A stretch of DNA of 56,976 nucleotides, taken from assembly GCA_024280145.1 (NCBI GenBank), contig JAJRQR010000191.1, positions 1 through 56,976 of the forward strand, given 5' to 3'. The notes beneath the pieces are model-generated. The model did no database searches. It was not told the origin of the DNA and saw nothing but the letters and a program-made list of their open reading frames with translations. Below, one piece after another: positions 42,539 to 49,713 of this stretch. The position numbers and the translations under genes were made by a program. The first letter of the stretch is position 1. Every line of letters starts with the position of its first letter. The stretch comes from Bacteroidota bacterium (lineage in GTDB: Bacteria; Bacteroidota; Bacteroidia; Flavobacteriales; Flavobacteriaceae).

Positions 42539-42877
42539 ATGGCAAACGATAACTATTACGACCCAAAGGACCTTCGGAAATTTGGAAATATAACCGAATG
42601 GAGTGAAGAATTAGGAACTAAGTTTTTTGATTACTACGGAAAAGTTTTCGAAGAAGGGGCCCTTACTGCACGAGAAAAATCCTTAATCGCATTGGCAGTT
42701 TCACACGTTGTAAAATGTCCTTATTGTATTGACGCCTACACCAAAGACGGATTACAAAAAGGAATCACTAAAGAAGAAATGATGGAAGCCGTTCACGTAG
42801 GTGCTGCGATTGAAAGCGGTGCAACCCTTGTTCATGGCGTACAAATGATGAATAAATATAATAAATTAAGTATGTAA
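42539..42877 (+). CDS. arsenosugar biosynthesis-associated AhpD-like peroxidase-like protein
   Basis: The 112-residue all-helical carboxymuconolactone decarboxylase/AhpD-fold protein has the redox pair in VKCPYCIDAYT (CxxC, about 60-63) and a following His in EAVHVGAAIESG (about 84). Members in this genome context are named for association with arsenosugar synthesis. A plausible job is thiol redox or handling of organoarsenical intermediates, but no activity is proven for it that I can recall. It is 47 bases upstream of arsS and is probably the first gene of the cluster transcript. Confidence 0.87.
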   Translation: MANDNYYDPKDLRKFGNITEWSEELGTKFFDYYGKVFEEGALTAREKSLIALAVSHVVKCPYCIDAYTKDGLQKGITKEEMMEAVHVGAAIESGATLVHGVQMMNKYNKLSM

Positions 42878-42924
42878 GCAGAACACAGTTTTTGCGACTA
42901 TGTCTTCTTGAATTAAATAATTTT

Positions 42925-43980
42925 ATGTCATTATCTTCTCTTAAAAAACAAAACAACAAATTTGCTGATGGAAAAGTTCAGTTAGAATATTTATCTAACG
43001 GAATTTTCGCAAATGGAGAACTACCCACTTTCGGAAGAAAAATAATGGAGACTGGACAGTTTCCTTTGCGACCTAAAAAATTAGAAGTACTTCAAATTAA
43101 TTTGGGTTATATGTGTAATCAAGTTTGCGAACATTGTCACGTAGATGCTGGTCCAGACCGAAAAGAAATCATGACCAAGGAAACCATGTTGCAGTGTTTG
43201 GAAGTGATAAAAAATACCCAAGCCACTACTTTAGATTTTACAGGTGGAGCTCCCGAAATGAATCCTAATTTTAGATGGTTTGTAGATGAAGCTTCCAAAG
43301 CAGGAATTAAAGATTTTATTGTTCGGAGTAATTTAACCATCATTAGATCCAATAAAAAATATTATGATTTACCCGATTTTTTCAAAAGTCATAATGTTCA
43401 TGTAGTAAGTTCAATGCCACATTGGACCCGTGGAAAAACAGATAAACAAAGGGGAAGTGGTGTTTTCGATCAATCTATAAAAGCCCTACAAGAACTCAAT
43501 GCTGTTGGTTACGGAATGCCTGATAGCGATTTAAAGTTAGATTTAGTTTACAATCCTAGTGGTGCTTTTTTACCCGGAGATCAAGAAAATATGGAGCGTG
43601 ATTTTAAAAAGGCATTGTTGGAAGACTTCGAAATTCAATTTCATAATTTATTTTCAATTACCAATTTACCTGTATCCCGATTTTTGGATTATTTAATTGC
43701 TTCCGATAATTATGAAGACTATATGTATAGCTTGGTAGAAGCTTATAATCCCTTGGCGGTGGAAAACGTAATGTGTACCAATACTATTTCGGTAAGTTGG
43801 GAAGGCTGGCTATATGATTGTGATTTCAACCAAATGCTAGGGTTGAAAGTTGCTAGTAAAGTGAAACACATTTCAGATTACAACGAAGAATTATTAAATA
43901 ACCGAAACATCATCATTTCGCAACATTGCTACGGCTGTACTGCTGGCGCTGGAAGCAGCTGCCAAGGCGTTGTCGCTTAA
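42925..43980 (+). CDS. arsS: arsenosugar biosynthesis radical SAM protein ArsS
   Basis: The 351-residue radical SAM enzyme has the cluster motif CNQVCEHCHVDAG (CxxxCxxC, about 65-72) and TGGAPEMNP for SAM binding (about 110-118). Its C-terminal Cys-rich domain (MCTNTISVSWEG, DCDFNQMLG, then HCYGCTAGAGSSCQG) may bind a second Fe-S cluster. ArsS is linked to forming the As-C5' bond between dimethylated arsenic and the SAM-derived deoxyadenosyl group, giving dimethylarsinoyl-deoxyadenosine. The start at 42925 (MSLSSLKKQNNKFADGK) is preferred over an upstream in-frame codon at 42892, which adds a hydrophobic stretch absent from this family. A short repeat follows its stop. Confidence 0.93.
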   Translation: MSLSSLKKQNNKFADGKVQLEYLSNGIFANGELPTFGRKIMETGQFPLRPKKLEVLQINLGYMCNQVCEHCHVDAGPDRKEIMTKETMLQCLEVIKNTQATTLDFTGGAPEMNPNFRWFVDEASKAGIKDFIVRSNLTIIRSNKKYYDLPDFFKSHNVHVVSSMPHWTRGKTDKQRGSGVFDQSIKALQELNAVGYGMPDSDLKLDLVYNPSGAFLPGDQENMERDFKKALLEDFEIQFHNLFSITNLPVSRFLDYLIASDNYEDYMYSLVEAYNPLAVENVMCTNTISVSWEGWLYDCDFNQMLGLKVASKVKHISDYNEELLNNRNIIISQHCYGCTAGAGSSCQGVVA

Positions 43981-43998
43981 TTCCTGCGAAAGAAGGAA
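43981..43998. repeat. short imperfect palindrome after arsS (TTCCYGC family)
   Basis: TTCCTGCGAAAGAAGGAA has TTCCT/AGGAA arms around an 8-base centre. It resembles the elements at 46022 and 47019 and directly follows the arsS stop. The gap at 45181 shares its right end (AAGGAA..AATCCTATGA). Confidence 0.55.
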
Positions 43999-44007
43999 TC
44001 TAATCCT

Positions 44008-44508
44008 ATGAAAAACAAATTTCTATACCTATTTATCATTCTTATTGGCACCACCTCTAACGCCCAAAAAACCCTAGACGCCACTCTAAAAAAATACAAC
44101 AAAAACAACGTTTCCTATATTTCGGTAACAGAATTGCGAATGCTTCAAGCACAAGAAAATGTTTTGATTTTAGATAGTCGGGAATTAAAAGAATTTCAAG
44201 TAAGTCATATTGAAAATGCTACCAATGTGGGATTTGATTTTTTTTCTATTGAAGAATTTTCTGAAAAATATCCCAATAAAAATGAAGTGATTGTAGTCTA
44301 TTGCACTTTAGGAATTCGTTCTGAAACCATTTCAGACCAACTTATTAAAGCAGGATATATCAACGTAAAAAACTTATACGGCGGAATTTGTGAATGGAAA
44401 AACAAAGATTTTAAAGTGTTGGATTCTACCCAAACTGAAACCGAAAACATTCACACTTTTAATAAAGAATGGAGCAAATGGTTACATAAAGGAAAACCGG
44501 TGTATTAA
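44008..44508 (+). CDS. secreted rhodanese-domain protein
   Basis: The 166-residue protein has a signal peptide (about 1-19, LIGTTSNAQ), so it acts in the periplasm. A single rhodanese domain follows, with LILDSRELKEFQVSHIENAT (about 53-72) and the active loop VVYCTLGIRSETI (Cys about 114). The CTLGIRS loop is long enough for sulfurtransferase activity. Rhodaneses move sulfane sulfur or act as thiol carriers; in an arsenic context one could generate thio-arsenicals. It lies between arsS and the TIGR04282 gene, with the TAA immediately before the next ATG. Confidence 0.88.
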   Translation: MKNKFLYLFIILIGTTSNAQKTLDATLKKYNKNNVSYISVTELRMLQAQENVLILDSRELKEFQVSHIENATNVGFDFFSIEEFSEKYPNKNEVIVVYCTLGIRSETISDQLIKAGYINVKNLYGGICEWKNKDFKVLDSTQTETENIHTFNKEWSKWLHKGKPVY

Positions 44509-45180
44509 ATGGCTTTACTGACTTCAAATAATAATTCCAATAGCAATTTAGATGAGGTTTTTTATTTTCCTTCTTCAAAAAACGCACTGATAATATTTAC
44601 CAGAAACCCAGAATTAGGAAAAGTAAAAACTCGATTAGCAGCAACTGTTGGAGATGAAACCGCATTAGAAATTTACAATATATTAATTAATCGTATTGTG
44701 GAGGTTTCAGAAAAAACAACTGCTAATAAATATGTTTTTTATTCGGAAAATATTCAAGAAAATGATGCTTGGGATGATACGATTTTCAGAAAAAAATTAC
44801 AACACGGTGAGAATTTGGGAGATAGAATGAATAATGCTTTCGTGGAACTATTTAATATGAATTATCAAAAAGTAGTAATTGTTGGGTCTGACATTTACGA
44901 ACTTACTTCGCAAGATATAGAGGATTCTTTTTCTGCTCTTGAAACGGATGATTTTGTAATAGGTCCGGCAAAAGATGGAGGTTATTATTTACTGGGAATG
45001 AAACTATTAAATTCCAATATCTTCAAAAATAAAAATTGGGGAACCAATTCGGTTTTTAAAAACACTATGGAAGATTTAAAAAACGAAAAAGTATCTTTGT
45101 TAGCTATGAAGAATGATATCGATTATTATGAAGATTTAGAGGAAATCGAAATTTTTCAGAAATACAAAGTCAATAACTAA
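44509..45180 (+). CDS. TIGR04282/DUF2064 arsenosugar-cluster GT-A fold protein (candidate sugar-1-phosphate nucleotidyltransferase)
   Basis: The 223-residue cytosolic protein belongs to the DUF2064 family, named glycosyltransferase in arsenosugar clusters. ALIIFTRNPELGKVKTRLAA (about 26-45) resembles the nucleotide-binding N-terminus of CofC/MobA-like nucleotidyltransferases more than a GT2 enzyme. VVIVGSDIYEL (about 123-133) could carry the metal-binding Asp and DFVIGPAKDGGYYLLGMK (about 147-164) is the family's strongest motif. That supports, but does not prove, nucleotide activation of an arsenoribose-1-phosphate. Its ATG abuts the rhodanese stop; the PNP gene follows after 12 bases. Confidence 0.85.
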   Translation: MALLTSNNNSNSNLDEVFYFPSSKNALIIFTRNPELGKVKTRLAATVGDETALEIYNILINRIVEVSEKTTANKYVFYSENIQENDAWDDTIFRKKLQHGENLGDRMNNAFVELFNMNYQKVVIVGSDIYELTSQDIEDSFSALETDDFVIGPAKDGGYYLLGMKLLNSNIFKNKNWGTNSVFKNTMEDLKNEKVSLLAMKNDIDYYEDLEEIEIFQKYKVNN

Positions 45181-45192
45181 AGGAAAAATCCT

Positions 45193-46005
45193 ATGATAAA
45201 ATATATAAATGAAGCCGCAGATGATTTAAAAAAGAAAGGGTTTGAAGCCCCCGAAATTGGTATTGTTCTCGGCACAGGATTGGGTAAATTGGTAGATGAA
45301 ATCGAGATTATAGCAAAAGCTAGTTACAATCACATTCCGAGTTTTCCAACAGCTACTGTAGAGTTTCATCAAGGAAAACTAATCTACGGAACCTTAGCAG
45401 AAAAAAAAGTGGTGGTGATGCAAGGAAGGTTTCATTTGTATGAAGGTTATTCAACCTACGATGTCACTTTTCCAATACGAGTAATGAAGGAATTAGGAAT
45501 TACAAAATTATTGGTCAGTAATGCCGCAGGAGCCATCAATAAAAGCTATAAAAAAGGAGAAATAATGCTGATTGACGATCATATAAACCTTCAGAGAGAT
45601 TCTCCTTTAGCATTCAAAGGTGTAGAAGAAATGGGCGAGCGTTTTGTAGATATGAGTGCTCCTTATGATACAGGAATGAATCAAAAAATTGAAGCTATTG
45701 CTACTAAAAACAACATCAATCTTCAAAAAGGAGTTTATGCAAGTGTATTGGGTCCACAGTTAGAAACCCGTGCAGAATATCGTTATTTAGGAATTATAGG
45801 CGCTGATGCAGTTGGTATGAGTACGGTTCCTGAAGTGATTGTTGCTAATCATTTAAATTTGTCAGTGGCTGCGGTATCCGTTTTAACAGACGAATGCGAC
45901 CCAGATAATTTGAAACCTGTAAATATTCAAGAAATTATTGAAATTGCAGGAAAGGCGGAACCTGATATGATTACTTTGTTTCGGGAATTGATTAAAGAAA
46001 TTTAA
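45193..46005 (+). CDS. purine-nucleoside phosphorylase, trimeric class
   Basis: The 270-residue enzyme catalyses phosphorolysis of purine nucleosides to base and ribose-1-phosphate. Motifs include IVLGTGLGKLV (phosphate loop, about 24-34), the phosphate-binding His in MQGRFHLYEGY (about 76-86), VSNAAGAINKSYKKGEIM (about 112-129), GVYASVLGPQLETRAEYR (about 179-196) and DAVGMSTVPE (about 204-213). The base-specificity region is LTDECDPDNLKPVN (about 235-248). Embedded between two arsenosugar genes, it could act on dimethylarsinoyl-deoxyadenosine as well as, or instead of, ordinary nucleosides. Confidence 0.93.
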   Translation: MIKYINEAADDLKKKGFEAPEIGIVLGTGLGKLVDEIEIIAKASYNHIPSFPTATVEFHQGKLIYGTLAEKKVVVMQGRFHLYEGYSTYDVTFPIRVMKELGITKLLVSNAAGAINKSYKKGEIMLIDDHINLQRDSPLAFKGVEEMGERFVDMSAPYDTGMNQKIEAIATKNNINLQKGVYASVLGPQLETRAEYRYLGIIGADAVGMSTVPEVIVANHLNLSVAAVSVLTDECDPDNLKPVNIQEIIEIAGKAEPDMITLFRELIKEI

Positions 46006-46021
46006 TATTAACTAAATAAGA

Positions 46022-46039
46022 TTCCCGCCTTTGCGGGAA
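46022..46039. repeat. short palindrome before arsM (TTCCYGC family)
   Basis: TTCCCGC, a CTTT loop and GCGGGAA form a perfect 7-bp stem between the PNP stop and the arsM start. The right arm overlaps an in-frame TTG, so the arsM start is set at the next ATG. Confidence 0.7.
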
Positions 46040-46045
46040 ATGAAT

Positions 46046-47017
46046 ATGAGCGATTATTTAAAAGCAACCCACGACCTATACAAAGACGCAGCCTTAACTC
46101 CAGATGTTGGACTTTGCTGTACGACCAATCCTATTTGGGAATTACCAGGATTAAAAATTCCAAAAATCATGCAAGAAATGAATTACGGCTGCGGTTCTAC
46201 CGTAAACGCACGTGATTTAACCAACAATCCAAAAACACTATATGTAGGTGTTGGTGGCGGAATGGAATTATTGCAATTTTCATATTTCTCTCGTCAAAAA
46301 GGAGGCGTGATTGGCGTAGATGTAGTTGATGAAATGTTGGAAGCTTCTCGGAAAAATTTTAAGGAAGCTGAAGAAATGAATCCTTGGTTTAAATCGGAAT
46401 TTGTAGAACTTAAAAAAGGAGATGCATTAAACCTACCAGTAGAAGACAACTCTATTGATGTGGCTGCTCAAAACTGCTTGTTCAATATATTTAAAGCAGA
46501 AGATTTAAAGAAAGCCATCGAAGAGATGTACCGAGTTTTAAAACCACACGGAAGATTAGTAATGAGCGATCCTACTTGCGAACAACCTATGAACGAAACC
46601 TTACGAAACGATGAACGATTAAGAGCTTTGTGTTTAAGTGGAAGTCTTCCTATTAAAGAATATATTAAAGCATTGACCGATGTGGGTTTTGGAACCATCG
46701 AAATTAGAGCTAGAAAACCCTACCGAATTTTAGATACAAAAAGCTATCCAACAGATGAGTTAATCTATATTGAAAGCATCGAAATTGCGGCAATTAAAGA
46801 TCTTGTTTTACCAGATGGACCTTGTATTTTCACAGGAAAAGCAGCCATCTATTTTGGAGAAGATGATTATTTTGATGATAAAAAAGGTCATGTTTTAATG
46901 AAGAATCAACCACTAGCAATTTGCGATAAAACGGCTGGACAGTTTAAAGATTTGGGTAGAGATGATATTTATATTTCGAAATCTACTTATCATTATGATG
47001 GTGGTGGGTGTTGTTAA
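46046..47017 (+). CDS. arsM: arsenosugar biosynthesis arsenite methyltransferase ArsM
   Basis: The 323-residue SAM-dependent methyltransferase should convert arsenite to dimethylated arsenic for ArsS. The N-terminal Cys pair is in DVGLCCTTNPIWELPG (about 20-35). The SAM site is TLYVGVGGGMELLQF (about 65-79) and GVIGVDVVDEML; the As-binding Cys residues include AAQNCLFNIF (about 142) and the region near LRALCLSGSLP (about 189). The chain ends in GGGCC, a terminal Cys pair seen in this subgroup. The start at 46046 (MSDYLKATHDLY) is chosen because the upstream in-frame ATG (46040) and TTG (46031) lie in or against the palindrome. Confidence 0.93.
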   Translation: MSDYLKATHDLYKDAALTPDVGLCCTTNPIWELPGLKIPKIMQEMNYGCGSTVNARDLTNNPKTLYVGVGGGMELLQFSYFSRQKGGVIGVDVVDEMLEASRKNFKEAEEMNPWFKSEFVELKKGDALNLPVEDNSIDVAAQNCLFNIFKAEDLKKAIEEMYRVLKPHGRLVMSDPTCEQPMNETLRNDERLRALCLSGSLPIKEYIKALTDVGFGTIEIRARKPYRILDTKSYPTDELIYIESIEIAAIKDLVLPDGPCIFTGKAAIYFGEDDYFDDKKGHVLMKNQPLAICDKTAGQFKDLGRDDIYISKSTYHYDGGGCC

Positions 47018-47018
47018 A

Positions 47019-47036
47019 TTCCTGCGAAGGCAGGAA
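47019..47036. repeat. short palindrome after arsM (TTCCYGC family)
   Basis: TTCCTGC, a GAAG loop and GCAGGAA form a perfect 7-bp stem starting two bases after the arsM stop. It could act as a hairpin in the transcript but lacks a T-tract. Confidence 0.7.
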
Positions 47037-47063
47037 ACTCTTTTAAGATATTTATATCATTCA

Positions 47064-47096
47064 AGACCTAACAGGTTTTGAAAACCTGTTAGGTCT
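47064..47096. repeat. 33-bp perfect palindrome (copy 1)
   Basis: Arms AGACCTAACAGGTTTT and AAAACCTGTTAGGTCT are exact reverse complements around one G. A related element lies at 56859-56891. The location is between arsM and the DUF547 gene, next to the shorter palindrome at 47019. No T-tract follows. Confidence 0.85.
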
Positions 47097-47161
47097 GACA
47101 AAAGGAACAGTTCTTGTAATGTTCTCCATAATTTTCAGACTTAATCAAAAATAATAATTCA

Positions 47162-47935
47162 ATGAAAAATATTTCTCTACTTCTTACGTTTCTTTTTGTG
47201 TTTCAAAGTTGTCAAAGTAAAACCACAAAAGACTTAGATATTAAACAGGTTCAAGGAAACTTGAGTTATTCCATAGCAACTTCAGAAAAAGCAAACCATA
47301 AAGTTTGGGATGTTTTATTAAAGAAATTTGTCGATTCTGAAGGCTTTGTAGACTATAAAGGGTTTTTAAATAGTAAAATCGAATTATCAAATTATATCAA
47401 TTATCTTTCTGAAAATGTACCAGACGAAAGCTGGACAGTTCAAGAACAATTGGCATATTACATCAACCTTTACAATGCTTTAACGGTACAATTAATTTTA
47501 GATAACTACCCAACAAACAGTATTAAAGACATCAAAAAACCTTGGGATCAAAAAGTCATTAATTTAAAAGGAACCGATTATTCTCTCGGAGATATTGAGC
47601 ATAAAATATTACGTAAAATGAACGAACCAAGAATCCATTTTGCTATTAATTGTGCTTCTTATTCTTGCCCTAAATTATTGAACGAAGCCTTTACCGCTTC
47701 CAAATTAGAAAATCAATTAGAACAAGTTTCCGATAGTTTTATCAACGGGAATAAAAATGAAACCAATCCAACCAATCCTAAACTTTCAAAAATCTTTAAA
47801 TGGTATAAAAAGGATTTTGAAGTAAATGGAAATTCAGATGTCATTCAGTTTATTAATCAATATAGCAATGTGAAAATCAATGAAGATGCTTCAATTGATT
47901 ATTTGGATTATAACTGGAATCTTAACCAAAAATAG
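47162..47935 (+). CDS. DUF547 lipoprotein of the arsenosugar cluster
   Basis: The 257-residue lipoprotein has lipobox FQSC (Cys about 17). The DUF547 core shows VWDVLLKKFVDSEGFVDYKG (about 43-62), LAYYINLYNALTVQLILDNY (about 99-118) and HFAINCASYSCPKLLNEAF (about 159-177), with two closely spaced Cys that are conserved in the family. DUF547 resembles transglutaminase-like or papain-fold proteins, but its function is not established. Its presence between arsM and the TIGR04283 gene suggests a part in arsenosugar handling outside the cytoplasm. The next gene starts 24 bases later. Confidence 0.87.
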   Translation: MKNISLLLTFLFVFQSCQSKTTKDLDIKQVQGNLSYSIATSEKANHKVWDVLLKKFVDSEGFVDYKGFLNSKIELSNYINYLSENVPDESWTVQEQLAYYINLYNALTVQLILDNYPTNSIKDIKKPWDQKVINLKGTDYSLGDIEHKILRKMNEPRIHFAINCASYSCPKLLNEAFTASKLENQLEQVSDSFINGNKNETNPTNPKLSKIFKWYKKDFEVNGNSDVIQFINQYSNVKINEDASIDYLDYNWNLNQK

Positions 47936-47959
47936 TTCAATAATTTGTATGTTTAGACA

Positions 47960-48667
47960 ATGATTAGCATTGTAATTCCTGTTTTTAATGAAGCTGAAAA
48001 CATCGAGAACTTATTGGTTTATTTGATGGAGAATTCTTCTTCAAAAAACATTGCTGAAATTATTGTGGTTGATGGTGGGAGTTCTGATGGAACCATAAAT
48101 ATTGTTGAATGTCAGGTTGAGCGCAGTCGAAACCCTAAACACATCCAATTACTCAATTCCCCAAAAGGCAGAGCAAAACAAATGAATCTTGGTGCAAAAA
48201 AAGCTGCCGGAAACATTCTCTATTTTCTTCACGCAGATAGTTTCCCTCCTAAAAACTTTGACCAATTAATTATTAATGAAGTTGAAAAAGGAAATTTAGC
48301 AGGTTGTTTTAAAATGAAATTTAATCATAATCATTGGTGGCTTAGATTGGCTTCTTGGTTGACTCATTTTTCTTGGCGGGCTTGTCGTGGCGGTGACCAA
48401 AGTCAGTTTATTACTAAAGGTTTATTCAAAGATATTGGGGGTTATGACGAAAGTTACATTATTTATGAAGACAACATTCTAATCAATGAACTTTTTAAAA
48501 GAAAACAATTTGTAGTGATTCAAGAATGGATTACTACCTCAGCAAGATTGTACGAACGTAAAGGAATTTGGATCTTACAATACCACTTTTGGACAATTTA
48601 TGTAAAGCGTTGGTTTGGGGCTTCAGCTGATGACATTTATGAATACTACAAGAAATATATTACTTGA
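47960..48667 (+). CDS. TIGR04283 arsenosugar-cluster glycosyltransferase with repeat-derived insertion
   Basis: The 235-residue GT2-fold glycosyltransferase has the GT-A nucleotide site SIVIPVFNEAENIENLL (about 3-19) and IVVDGGSSDGT (about 35-45), a metal-binding DxD-like site in FLHADSFPP (about 92-100), and the acceptor segment GGDQSQFITKGLFKDIGGYD. Residues 51-59 read CQVERSRNP and are encoded by a dispersed genomic repeat (48110-48136) placed in frame between beta strands. The rest of the protein is intact. It would transfer the activated arsenoribose to an acceptor such as glycerol or a lipid, which is an inference. It is the last gene of the cluster. Confidence 0.9.
   Translation: MISIVIPVFNEAENIENLLVYLMENSSSKNIAEIIVVDGGSSDGTINIVECQVERSRNPKHIQLLNSPKGRAKQMNLGAKKAAGNILYFLHADSFPPKNFDQLIINEVEKGNLAGCFKMKFNHNHWWLRLASWLTHFSWRACRGGDQSQFITKGLFKDIGGYDESYIIYEDNILINELFKRKQFVVIQEWITTSARLYERKGIWILQYHFWTIYVKRWFGASADDIYEYYKKYIT
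48110..48136 (+). repeat. dispersed 26-bp repeat (copy 2), inserted in frame in a coding gene
   Basis: TGTCAGGTTGAGCGCAGTCG followed by AAACCCT matches the reverse complement of the intergenic copy at 14643-14668 at 23 of 26 positions. It lies in frame within the TIGR04283 glycosyltransferase and encodes CQVERSRNP. Confidence 0.8.
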
Positions 48668-48687: not shown

Positions 48688-49713
48688 TTAATATTTTAAA
48701 TAAAACCCTCTAACAATATCCTCCACAGGCTTATTCTGAGGTGTAAACATCGTATTGTCTTTTCCGCCAATTCCTTCGTGTTTGATATGCCATTTCCAAA
48801 GAAAACCTCCAGCAAACCATTCTTCTTTCCATATCTCTTCAAACAAAGCTTTGGTTAAAATTTCTTGCGCTTTTAAATTTACTTCTCCCATGTCTCGGTC
48901 GCTTTTCCAAGGTTCTTTTCCAGAAAAATTTACACTTCGGTATCCATATTCGGTAAAAATTATTTTCTTATTTGTTTTTGTAGAAACTGAAATCATTTCT
49001 TTTTTCCATTGTTGCCAACCTTGTTTTGCTTCTTCAATGGTTGGAGTTTCACTTTCTGAAATCGGAAAATAAGCATCTACTCCTATATAATCTATTTCTT
49101 CCCAAAAAGGAACTCGTTTGTATTCATCCCAATTGGCGGCATAAGTGAGTTTGCCTTTATAAGTGGTTTTTATTTCGGTAATTAATCGTTTCCAAAAATC
49201 AGGACGATGAATAATAAATTGTTCTAACTCGGTTCCTATACAGAAAATATCGACTTGTGTTTCTTCAGCAACTTTAGCAAAATCAATAATAAAATTTCGA
49301 TATGAGTTTTCTAAAAGTTGCCAATCTTCTTCCGTCTCCATTTTTAAACCACCTGTATATTCTCCGTGCCAAATCCAAATTTGTGGCTTCAGCATTACTT
49401 CTATTTTATTGTTATGAAGCTTTTCAATATACTGCTTCACCCCTTCTTTAGTTTCACCAAACCATTGTCTTTCTGAATTGTAAACTACTTCTGGATGTTG
49501 CAAGTTTTTAATAAACCCAAACGGCATAATTGCGGTATAATTTGCGTTTATCTTTAAAATTGGATCAATATGATTTTGGGCTAATGTATCTGGAGATGCC
49601 ACAAAACTAATTCCGTTGATATGGATTTCTTTTTGTGCACAGCTATTCAGAAATGAAATGCTAAGAATAAAAATGAAAATAATAGTTCTTAAATACATTG
49701 CTTGATTTACCAA
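48688..49713 (-). CDS. secreted GH113-like TIM-barrel glycoside hydrolase
   Basis: The 341-residue protein has a signal peptide or lipobox near residue 25 (LNSCAQ). It reads as a (beta/alpha)8 hydrolase related to GH113 mannanases: MLKPQIWIWHGEYTG (about 113-127), the acid/base candidate in FCIGTELEQFIIH (about 159-171) and the nucleophile candidate in IIFTEYGYRSVNF (about 253-265). The final FLWKWHIKHEG is also typical. The substrate is uncertain. It converges with the glycosyltransferase gene and has no cluster partners on its strand. Confidence 0.8.
   Translation of the reverse strand: MVNQAMYLRTIIFIFILSISFLNSCAQKEIHINGISFVASPDTLAQNHIDPILKINANYTAIMPFGFIKNLQHPEVVYNSERQWFGETKEGVKQYIEKLHNNKIEVMLKPQIWIWHGEYTGGLKMETEEDWQLLENSYRNFIIDFAKVAEETQVDIFCIGTELEQFIIHRPDFWKRLITEIKTTYKGKLTYAANWDEYKRVPFWEEIDYIGVDAYFPISESETPTIEEAKQGWQQWKKEMISVSTKTNKKIIFTEYGYRSVNFSGKEPWKSDRDMGEVNLKAQEILTKALFEEIWKEEWFAGGFLWKWHIKHEGIGGKDNTMFTPQNKPVEDIVRGFYLKY

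Follow-up and report, generated by a model that had tools for sequence, protein, structure and literature searches.

A purine nucleoside phosphorylase, DUF2064 and glycosyltransferase gene set in a Flavobacteriaceae arsenosugar operon: a possible module for 5-substituted ribosides

Introduction

Which enzymes take the 5'-deoxyadenosyl arsenical formed by ArsM and ArsS onward to an arsenosugar? The question is raised by a run of eight genes in a Bacteroidota bacterium of the family Flavobacteriaceae (GenBank assembly GCA_024280145.1, 2.78 Mb and 87% complete; contig JAJRQR010000191.1), of which a stretch of 56,976 nucleotides, hereafter the window, was analysed. The run occupies positions 42539-48667 of the + strand and consists of open reading frames (ORFs) for an AhpD-like protein, ArsS, a rhodanese-domain protein, a TIGR04282/DUF2064 protein (DUF2064 below), a purine nucleoside phosphorylase (PNP), ArsM, a DUF547 protein and a TIGR04283 glycosyltransferase. 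An initial annotation of this DNA had placed ArsM, ArsS, PNP, DUF2064 and TIGR04283 in a single directional run. This was correct: all five lie on the + strand, their coordinates were right and their scores exceed the NCBIfam cut-offs. The AhpD-like, rhodanese (NF045521) and DUF547 genes had been omitted.

Methylation of arsenic by ArsM and addition of a 5'-deoxyadenosyl group by ArsS are known chemistry, and the product of the two enzymes is reportedly (Cheng et al. 2021) a 5'-deoxyadenosyl dimethylarsenical. The available parts of PMC8552651 and PMC12159101 cite this role of ArsS. The open-access literature that we searched yielded no assignment of enzymes leading from dimethylarsinoyl-deoxyadenosine (DDMAA) to arsenosugars, no paper on DUF2064 and none giving PNP or DUF2064 a role in arsenosugar synthesis, a weak absence since the central arsenosugar papers lie outside that literature. 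Five NCBIfam names contain "arsenosugar biosynthesis" (TIGR04167, TIGR04169, TIGR04282, TIGR04283 and NF038099), and the PNP family is not among them. The initial annotation had called the roles of PNP and DUF2064 unestablished; the link to the PNP is indeed new, whereas TIGR04282 and TIGR04283 are already named arsenosugar biosynthesis glycosyltransferases in NCBIfam. The cluster is a member of a known arsenosugar kind and its new part is the PNP link, together with the PNP-DUF2064 pairing and the occurrence of this pair, as a module, in genomes that lack the arsenosugar genes.

The reading that we prefer, with about even confidence, is that the arsenosugar operon is a general 5-substituted-ribose module fed by ArsM and ArsS, which works through phosphorolysis, nucleotidylation and transfer by a family 2 glycosyltransferase (GT2). 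It rests on gene identities, co-occurrence, retained active-site residues, the fold predicted for DUF2064, the module's persistence without arsS and arsM, and purifying selection in two genome pairs that lack them.

Results

A candidate pathway

ArsM would convert arsenite to a dimethylarsenical and ArsS would add a 5'-deoxyadenosyl group, giving a 5'-dimethylarsenical adenosine. The PNP would cleave this to adenine and 5-arsenical alpha-D-ribose 1-phosphate, which DUF2064 would convert to a nucleoside diphosphate (NDP) sugar with the alpha configuration kept, and TIGR04283, as an inverting GT2 enzyme, would transfer the NDP-arsenoribose to an acceptor as a beta-riboside. The rhodanese might act in the formation of thio-arsenosugars or in redox reactions. 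Relatives without arsM and arsS would use the module on another 5'-modified, or a plain, nucleoside. We infer all the catalytic steps and the acceptor from gene content, and the same applies to the initial annotation's statement that every step has an enzyme in the operon.

PNP phosphorolysis inverts beta to alpha and an inverting GT2 enzyme returns beta, so that the order PNP, DUF2064, TIGR04283 proposed in the initial annotation leads, by these generally known mechanisms, to a beta-riboside. Arsenosugars are given as beta-D-Ribf in the available part of PMC10456119 (Table 3), with which the proposed order is consistent.

Linkage of the PNP to arsS

Among 279 Flavobacteriaceae genomes, 201 carry arsS and 247 a PNP resembling that of the window. 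We call a PNP class A when, like that of the window, it has Asp at the position of human Asn243 and Ile at that of human His257. In genome counts "class A level" means an E value of 1e-94 or better; these counts rest on E values, and only the sequences of fetched loci were read. Class A level PNPs occur in 195 of the 201 arsS-positive genomes (five have a weaker PNP and one has none) and in 28 of the 78 arsS-negative ones (weaker in 19, none in 31). Gene positions are known only for the best matches listed in each search. Both coordinates were among the matches listed for 112 Flavobacteriaceae, chosen in this way for PNPs most like the window's and so biased to close kin: arsS and the PNP are at most 5.5 kb apart in 85, 5.5-15 kb apart in 14 and farther apart or on different contigs in 13, so that 99 have the PNP within 15 kb. 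The arrangement exceeds chance; Fisher tests on these genome counts, and on those of TIGR04282 across the phylum (below), ignore shared descent. Eighty named arsS loci include the PNP in at least 57, a DUF2064-type gene in at least 68, ArsM in at least 45, TIGR04283 in at least 27 and the AhpD-like label in at least 77, these being lower bounds because some loci are truncated where a contig stops and overlapping ORFs had been reduced in number. Strains of Winogradskyella and Polaribacter are among the carriers of the cluster.

The window protein belongs to the trimeric PNP family NF006054 by score and by fold, its model matching 4m1e (VIA Z 41.6, root-mean-square deviation (rmsd) 1.3, 269 residues aligned) and 4lna (Z 41.5). 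It narrowly misses the cut-off for inosine/guanosine-specific PNPs (TIGR01700, 291.1 against 293.35 bits), lacks the human-type inosine/guanosine residues Asn243 and His257, and falls far below that for 5'-methylthioadenosine (MTA) phosphorylase (TIGR01694, 93.6 against 274.85 bits). In human numbering, Arg84, His86, Tyr88, Glu201, Met219 and Ser220 are retained in all 54 full-length arsS-linked PNPs, in which Asn243 is replaced by Asp and His257 by Ile (50), Val (3) or Leu (1). Position 257 is Phe in another of the PNPs collected. We take MTA phosphorylase also to have an aliphatic residue at the position equivalent to His257. His257 of human PNP binds the substrate 5'-OH, according to the available part of PMC12648331, so an aliphatic residue there would suit a 5'-deoxy or 5'-substituted nucleoside. 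The 5' pocket thus looks altered in 54 of 54 sequences, in agreement with the 5'-deoxy substrate that the initial annotation had assigned to the PNP.

Twelve collected PNPs retain His257; all have Asp at 243 and all come from genomes without a TIGR04167 match above cut-off. The change of His257 to Ile was considered as an arsenosugar signature and was near-diagnostic among the first 59 relatives; it failed on wider sampling of class A, and we keep it as a hint about the 5' pocket, not as a marker.

Side observations on this family include a PNP with Lys-Gly after Asp243, unlike neighbouring sequences (locus L149 of genome G032; L and G numbers are our handles for loci and genomes), and a tandem PNP pair in L114 (G106) and L115 (G241), in which position 243 is Asn in one copy and Asp in the other. 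The tandem pair may be a natural duplication bearing on the choice between 6-oxo and 6-amino purines.

Is the PNP a dedicated arsenosugar enzyme?

Several observations weigh against our preferred reading. Homologues of PNP, DeoD or uridine phosphorylase were found in none of 27 arsS loci sampled across 26 families other than Flavobacteriaceae, in a search of all ORFs of at least 70 codons over up to 8 kb; no replacement phosphorylase near arsS came to light with these queries, which did not extend to nucleoside hydrolases with other folds. The other genes are scarce in the same loci (DUF2064 in 10, TIGR04283-like in 8, ArsM-like in 5), and four arsS-positive genomes have no NF038099 ArsM match (G003, G006, G178 and G359). 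The PNP itself is not restricted to arsenic loci: class A level proteins occur in 28 of the 78 arsS-negative Flavobacteriaceae, and class A is found across many Bacteroidota families with and without arsS, for example beside LpxK or YggS/DivIVA genes. The aliphatic replacement of His257 likewise occurs in PNPs of arsS-negative genomes and other gene contexts. Finally, a module free of arsS and arsM exists in 13 genomes (below), so that proximity to arsS is no proof of the substrate; the case for a dedicated pathway is weaker for it, and the biology broader.

Taken as an arsenosugar enzyme as such, the PNP of the initial annotation therefore does not stand: its class is phylum-wide, it is missing from the 27 arsS loci of other families and its module persists without arsS. 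The co-occurrence that the annotation had proposed to check is, for the PNP, tight in Flavobacteriaceae (99 of 112) and absent from the 27 loci elsewhere. The annotation had named as grounds for rejection frequent arsS clusters that lack PNP and DUF2064 and still make arsenosugars; as far as gene content goes, clusters lacking a nearby PNP predominate outside Flavobacteriaceae. The clear exception outside the family is Fulvivirga imtechensis (Fulvivirgaceae, L273), with the order AhpD-ArsS-PNP-ArsM. Three loci whose titles say only Flavobacteriales (L267, L272 and L276) also have a PNP near arsS.

These data bear on a rival explanation that we consider unlikely, in which the PNP is a bystander that clears 5'-deoxyadenosine, MTA or adenosine arising from S-adenosylmethionine chemistry, and another enzyme, such as a nucleosidase, removes the adenine. 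The wide distribution of class A and its absence from the 27 loci favour this explanation, and the available part of PMC10456119 reviews a nucleosidase step as a proposal for an arsenolipid. The window's own assembly (87% complete) also yielded only three PNP_UDP_1 proteins, namely the cluster PNP, one of DeoD type and one resembling uridine phosphorylase; no MTA nucleosidase turned up, so that MTA and 5'-deoxyadenosine may need the cluster PNP. The DeoD-type PNP, for its part, makes the cluster PNP unnecessary for ordinary purine salvage. Against a bystander stand the position of the PNP gene near arsS in 99 of 112 genomes and the overlap and pairing of its ORF with that of DUF2064, a possible consumer of the sugar phosphate that the PNP releases.

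Genus g38 has more genomes in the phylum sample than any other genus of the family. Its three arsS-positive genomes there have a class A level PNP about 1-9 kb from arsS and a second PNP. In the remaining eight g38 genomes that have a PNP match, every match is at 1e-86 or weaker; in this genus the class A level gene appears to travel with the arsS cluster. A dedicated second PNP beside a housekeeping PNP of the same family thus holds for these three genomes and not generally, most arsS-positive Flavobacteriaceae having one PNP of this family.

The module in genomes without arsS

In 13 of the 28 arsS-negative Flavobacteriaceae with a class A level PNP, DUF2064 adjoins the PNP, with TIGR04283 in 12, rhodanese in 11 and DUF547 in 8 of them (within about 1.5 kb of the PNP). 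None of the 28 genomes has an NF038099 ArsM, in a search that did find one in four of five arsS-positive genomes with a separate module (G190, G186, G289 and G029; not G359) and in G047. In G047, which belongs to another family of the order, arsS and a DUF547-rhodanese-DUF2064-PNP set are on separate contigs; G102, from another family and without an arsS match, has a similar set.

Module genes differ at 6-14% of nonsynonymous sites between G019 and G605 and at 12-26% between G400 and G616, each a same-genus arsS-negative pair, and synonymous sites are saturated in both (proportion of differences, pS, 0.73-0.84). Most dS values are undefined through saturation, so what is usable is raw pN and pS and four same-genus ratios (0.039-0.110). 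Since pN is far below a saturated pS, the module genes are under purifying selection in both pairs. A vestigial module left behind by loss of arsM and arsS is disfavoured by the same comparison, assuming that the loss predates each pair; in the other arsS-negative genomes the loss may be recent.

In a PNP tree, 11 of the 14 arsS-negative module rows fall in a 21-row clade with six arsS-positive genomes in which the module lies apart from arsS. The pattern reads as decoupling followed by loss of arsM and arsS with the module kept, as judged from a single PNP tree in which bootstrap values had not settled and several rows are on long branches.

Several decoupled modules stand beside genes for a methylthioribose (MTR)-kinase-like protein and an ADP-ribosylglycohydrolase-family protein. 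Methylthioribose kinase converts a free sugar to a 5-substituted ribose 1-phosphate, the type of product predicted for the PNP. The protein of G019 scores 129.5 bits with TIGR01767, below its cut-off of 275. The gene is present in 10 of the 13 arsS-negative module genomes, within the fetched module locus in seven (G400, G605, G019, G596, G485, G555 and G616); G573 and G507 (42-43% identical) and G418 have their matches off the module contig. It is also found in 5 of 15 arsS-positive genomes with the PNP far from arsS, each time less than 6 kb from the PNP, in 1 of 26 with the PNP near arsS, in 1 of 15 arsS-negative genomes without the module, in none of nine with only a weaker PNP, and in none of the 80 named arsS loci. 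In six of the 17 matches the aligned part is interrupted by in-frame stop codons. Most carriers share one clade of the PNP tree, and the association may therefore reflect descent. Both genes are upstream of the rhodanese gene in L178, L184-L188, L190 and L136, L183 has the ADP-ribosylglycohydrolase-family gene only, and a convergent GH32-type gene intervenes in some of these decoupled loci.

We advance tentatively, as a possibility in which our confidence is lower than in the preferred reading, that Bacteroidota hold an unrecognised arsenic-independent route in which a class A PNP or an MTR-kinase-like protein feeds DUF2064 and then TIGR04283; arsenosugar operons would be the same route with ArsM and ArsS added, using phosphorolysis and not a nucleosidase.

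In another rival explanation the module's product is a non-arsenic riboside everywhere, in the window too, with ArsM and ArsS as an adjacent arsenic branch that either stops at DDMAA or relies on different enzymes. We regard this as improbable. The order rhodanese-DUF2064-PNP-(DUF547)-TIGR04283 does occur without arsS or NF038099, its genes are constrained in the two arsS-negative pairs (pN 0.06-0.26 against saturated pS), and the module is distant from arsS in some arsS-positive genomes. On the other hand, ArsM comes straight after the PNP not only in the window but also in many coupled loci and four decoupled modules. DUF2064 also tracks arsS across the phylum, TIGR04282 being found in 132 of 135 arsS-positive and 71 of 210 arsS-negative genomes of a 345-genome Bacteroidota sample. 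The arsS-negative modules, moreover, fall mostly inside the diversity of arsS-linked PNPs, which reads as loss of arsM and arsS.

DUF2064 as a putative nucleotidyltransferase

The DUF2064 model (pLDDT 93.6) is closest to 3cgx (VIA Z 27.8), followed by CofC 2i5e (19.8; rmsd 2.3, 183 residues aligned), the 3-phospho-D-glycerate guanylyltransferase 7p97 (19.7) and FbiD 6bwh (17.3); cytidylyl- and uridylyltransferases and a mannosyltransferase follow at about 13-15. Asp128 and Asp205, present in all 41 sequences aligned, line up with Asp residues of CofC 2i5e by a weak sequence similarity (E 0.021); we take them to bind metal. The protein is below the cut-off for CofC proper (TIGR03552, 43.9 against 105 bits). 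Our best guess from the model is a nucleotidyltransferase acting on a phosphorylated substrate, as the initial annotation had suggested. With automatically assigned starts, 11 of the 13 arsS-negative modules show an overlap between the ORFs of DUF2064 and the PNP, which makes the sugar 1-phosphate from the PNP a natural candidate for that substrate.

It is very unlikely, in our view, that DUF2064 is instead a glycosyltransferase, as its NCBIfam product name and the title of 3cgx (putative nucleotide-diphospho-sugar transferase) would have it. Mannosylglycerate synthase is also among the structural matches, and the GT-A fold alone cannot separate the two activities, which counts against our assignment; CofC, FbiD and the guanylyltransferase nevertheless outrank the glycosyltransferase rows (Z 17-20 against 13), and the invariant, CofC-aligned Asp pair argues the same way.

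Organisation of the run in the window

Seven of the eight ORFs exceed curated NCBIfam cut-offs (Table 1). The DUF547 protein had no match in the NCBIfam search and was assigned by Pfam. The window ArsS and its counterpart in a Flavobacteriaceae metagenome-assembled genome (L198) share 93% identity, and the cysteines of the window protein's CxxxCxxC motif (Cys75, 79 and 82) are invariant in a 16-sequence alignment. The N-terminus of the rhodanese protein looks, by eye, like a signal peptide.

Table 1. Genes and palindromic elements of the eight-gene run, in window coordinates
Feature	Coordinates	Strand	Details
AhpD-like, TIGR04169 (arsenosugar biosynthesis-associated peroxidase-like)	42539..42877	+	201 bits vs cut-off 120
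ArsS, radical SAM, TIGR04167, C-terminal DUF3641	42892..43980	+	434 bits vs cut-off 300; DUF3641 5.8e-54
Imperfect palindrome immediately 3' of the arsS stop, kin to those at 46022 and 47019	43981..43998	+	2 mismatches to TTCCTGCGNAGGCAGGAA
Rhodanese-domain protein NF045521 (NCBI name rhoda_near_glyco)	44008..44508	+	189 bits vs cut-off 145
TIGR04282/DUF2064, predicted CofC-like nucleotidyltransferase	44509..45180	+	206 bits vs cut-off 134; model pLDDT 93.6
PNP, trimeric family, class A	45193..46005	+	NF006054 341 bits vs cut-off 218; model pLDDT 93.1
Palindrome within the PNP-arsM gap	46022..46039	.	3 mismatches; terminator-like on - strand
Arsenosugar-type ArsM, NF038099	46031..47017	+	565 bits vs cut-off 400
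Palindrome (47019-47036) and perfect 16-bp hairpin (47064-47096), arsM-DUF547 gap	47019..47096	.	
DUF547 protein	47162..47935	+	Pfam PF04784 3.5e-29
TIGR04283 GT2-type glycosyltransferase	47960..48667	+	225 bits vs cut-off 182; PF00535 7.8e-20

Gaps between ORFs are 0-27 bases, except for the 144 bases between ArsM and DUF547, which hold the perfect hairpin; this being the only long gap, the run would give one or two transcripts. The elements in this gap are a possible terminator or attenuator. Three related palindromes, resembling repetitive extragenic palindromes, lie in the arsS-rhodanese, PNP-arsM and arsM-DUF547 gaps, two of them flanking arsM; the pattern has four matches in the window (one palindrome being counted on both strands) against 0.04 expected. 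Terminator-like sites show no excess across the region (3 against 3.5 in shuffled sequence). The true start of ArsM may be the ATG at 46040 or 46046, the listed TTG falling, by eye, within a palindrome. The TIGR04283 protein contains an internal stretch, VECQVERSRNPKH, that resembles an in-frame insertion of a translated repeat. A GH113-family glycoside hydrolase gene (48688-49713, - strand) converges with the end of the operon.

Other arsS neighbourhoods show further variation. Two adjacent ArsS-labelled ORFs in L274 (Lacinutrix neustonica) are possibly a single split gene, and G341 has two arsS matches above cut-off. In several loci arsS adjoins a SusC/SusD-type pair and another DUF2064-like gene (about 52 bits in the loci checked), mostly together with a 444-residue protein of weak sodium/solute-symporter similarity. 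This set is downstream of arsS in L098, L100, L109, L202, L218-L221, L223, L230, L239 and L247 and upstream in L211, L216, L241 and L264; families were checked in L098, L100 and L109, and the other loci were recognised by size. It perhaps serves the uptake of an arsenical or a sugar.

Discussion

A route through a phosphorylase and a nucleotidyltransferase would, if true, explain the beta-riboside of arsenosugars and predict an NDP-arsenoribose intermediate. Should the sugar module operate in the absence of arsenic as well, neither TIGR04282 nor TIGR04283 would be a good marker of arsenic metabolism, and an arsenic-independent module would point to a new class of bacterial ribosides. In the available parts of two papers such markers are in use: TIGR04282 is scored among the arsenic resistance mechanisms of soil metagenomes (PMC11237643), and two "arsenosugar biosynthesis glycosyltransferase" genes of Modicisalibacter are listed as arsenic detoxification (PMC13077682). 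TIGR04282 is nevertheless carried by 71 of the 210 sampled Bacteroidota without arsS.

The closest known system is the ArsM-ArsS arsenosugar pathway, including that of Synechocystis cited in the available part of PMC8552651. The run in the window carries members of both its families, ArsS and arsenosugar-type ArsM; in that source the pathway has enzymes only up to the 5'-deoxyadenosyl arsenical, to which the window adds PNP, DUF2064 and TIGR04283 as candidates. All four families of the NCBIfam arsenosugar set TIGR04282, TIGR04283, TIGR04169 and NF038099 are present in the window; the set includes no PNP, and its TIGR04282 extends to genomes without arsS. DUF2064 shares its predicted fold with CofC/FbiD (2i5e, 6bwh) and 7p97, and the Asp positions with CofC, but is only 14-21% identical to these proteins and below the TIGR03552 cut-off. 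The window PNP has the fold and most of the active-site residues of trimeric PNPs (human, Bacteroides fragilis 8swt, Spirosoma 4lna), with Asp and Ile in place of the human Asn243 and His257. MTA phosphorylase and methylthioribose kinase, finally, provide two routes to a 5-substituted ribose 1-phosphate, the product type predicted for the window PNP, although both this PNP and the MTR-kinase-like protein score under the respective family cut-offs (TIGR01694 and TIGR01767).

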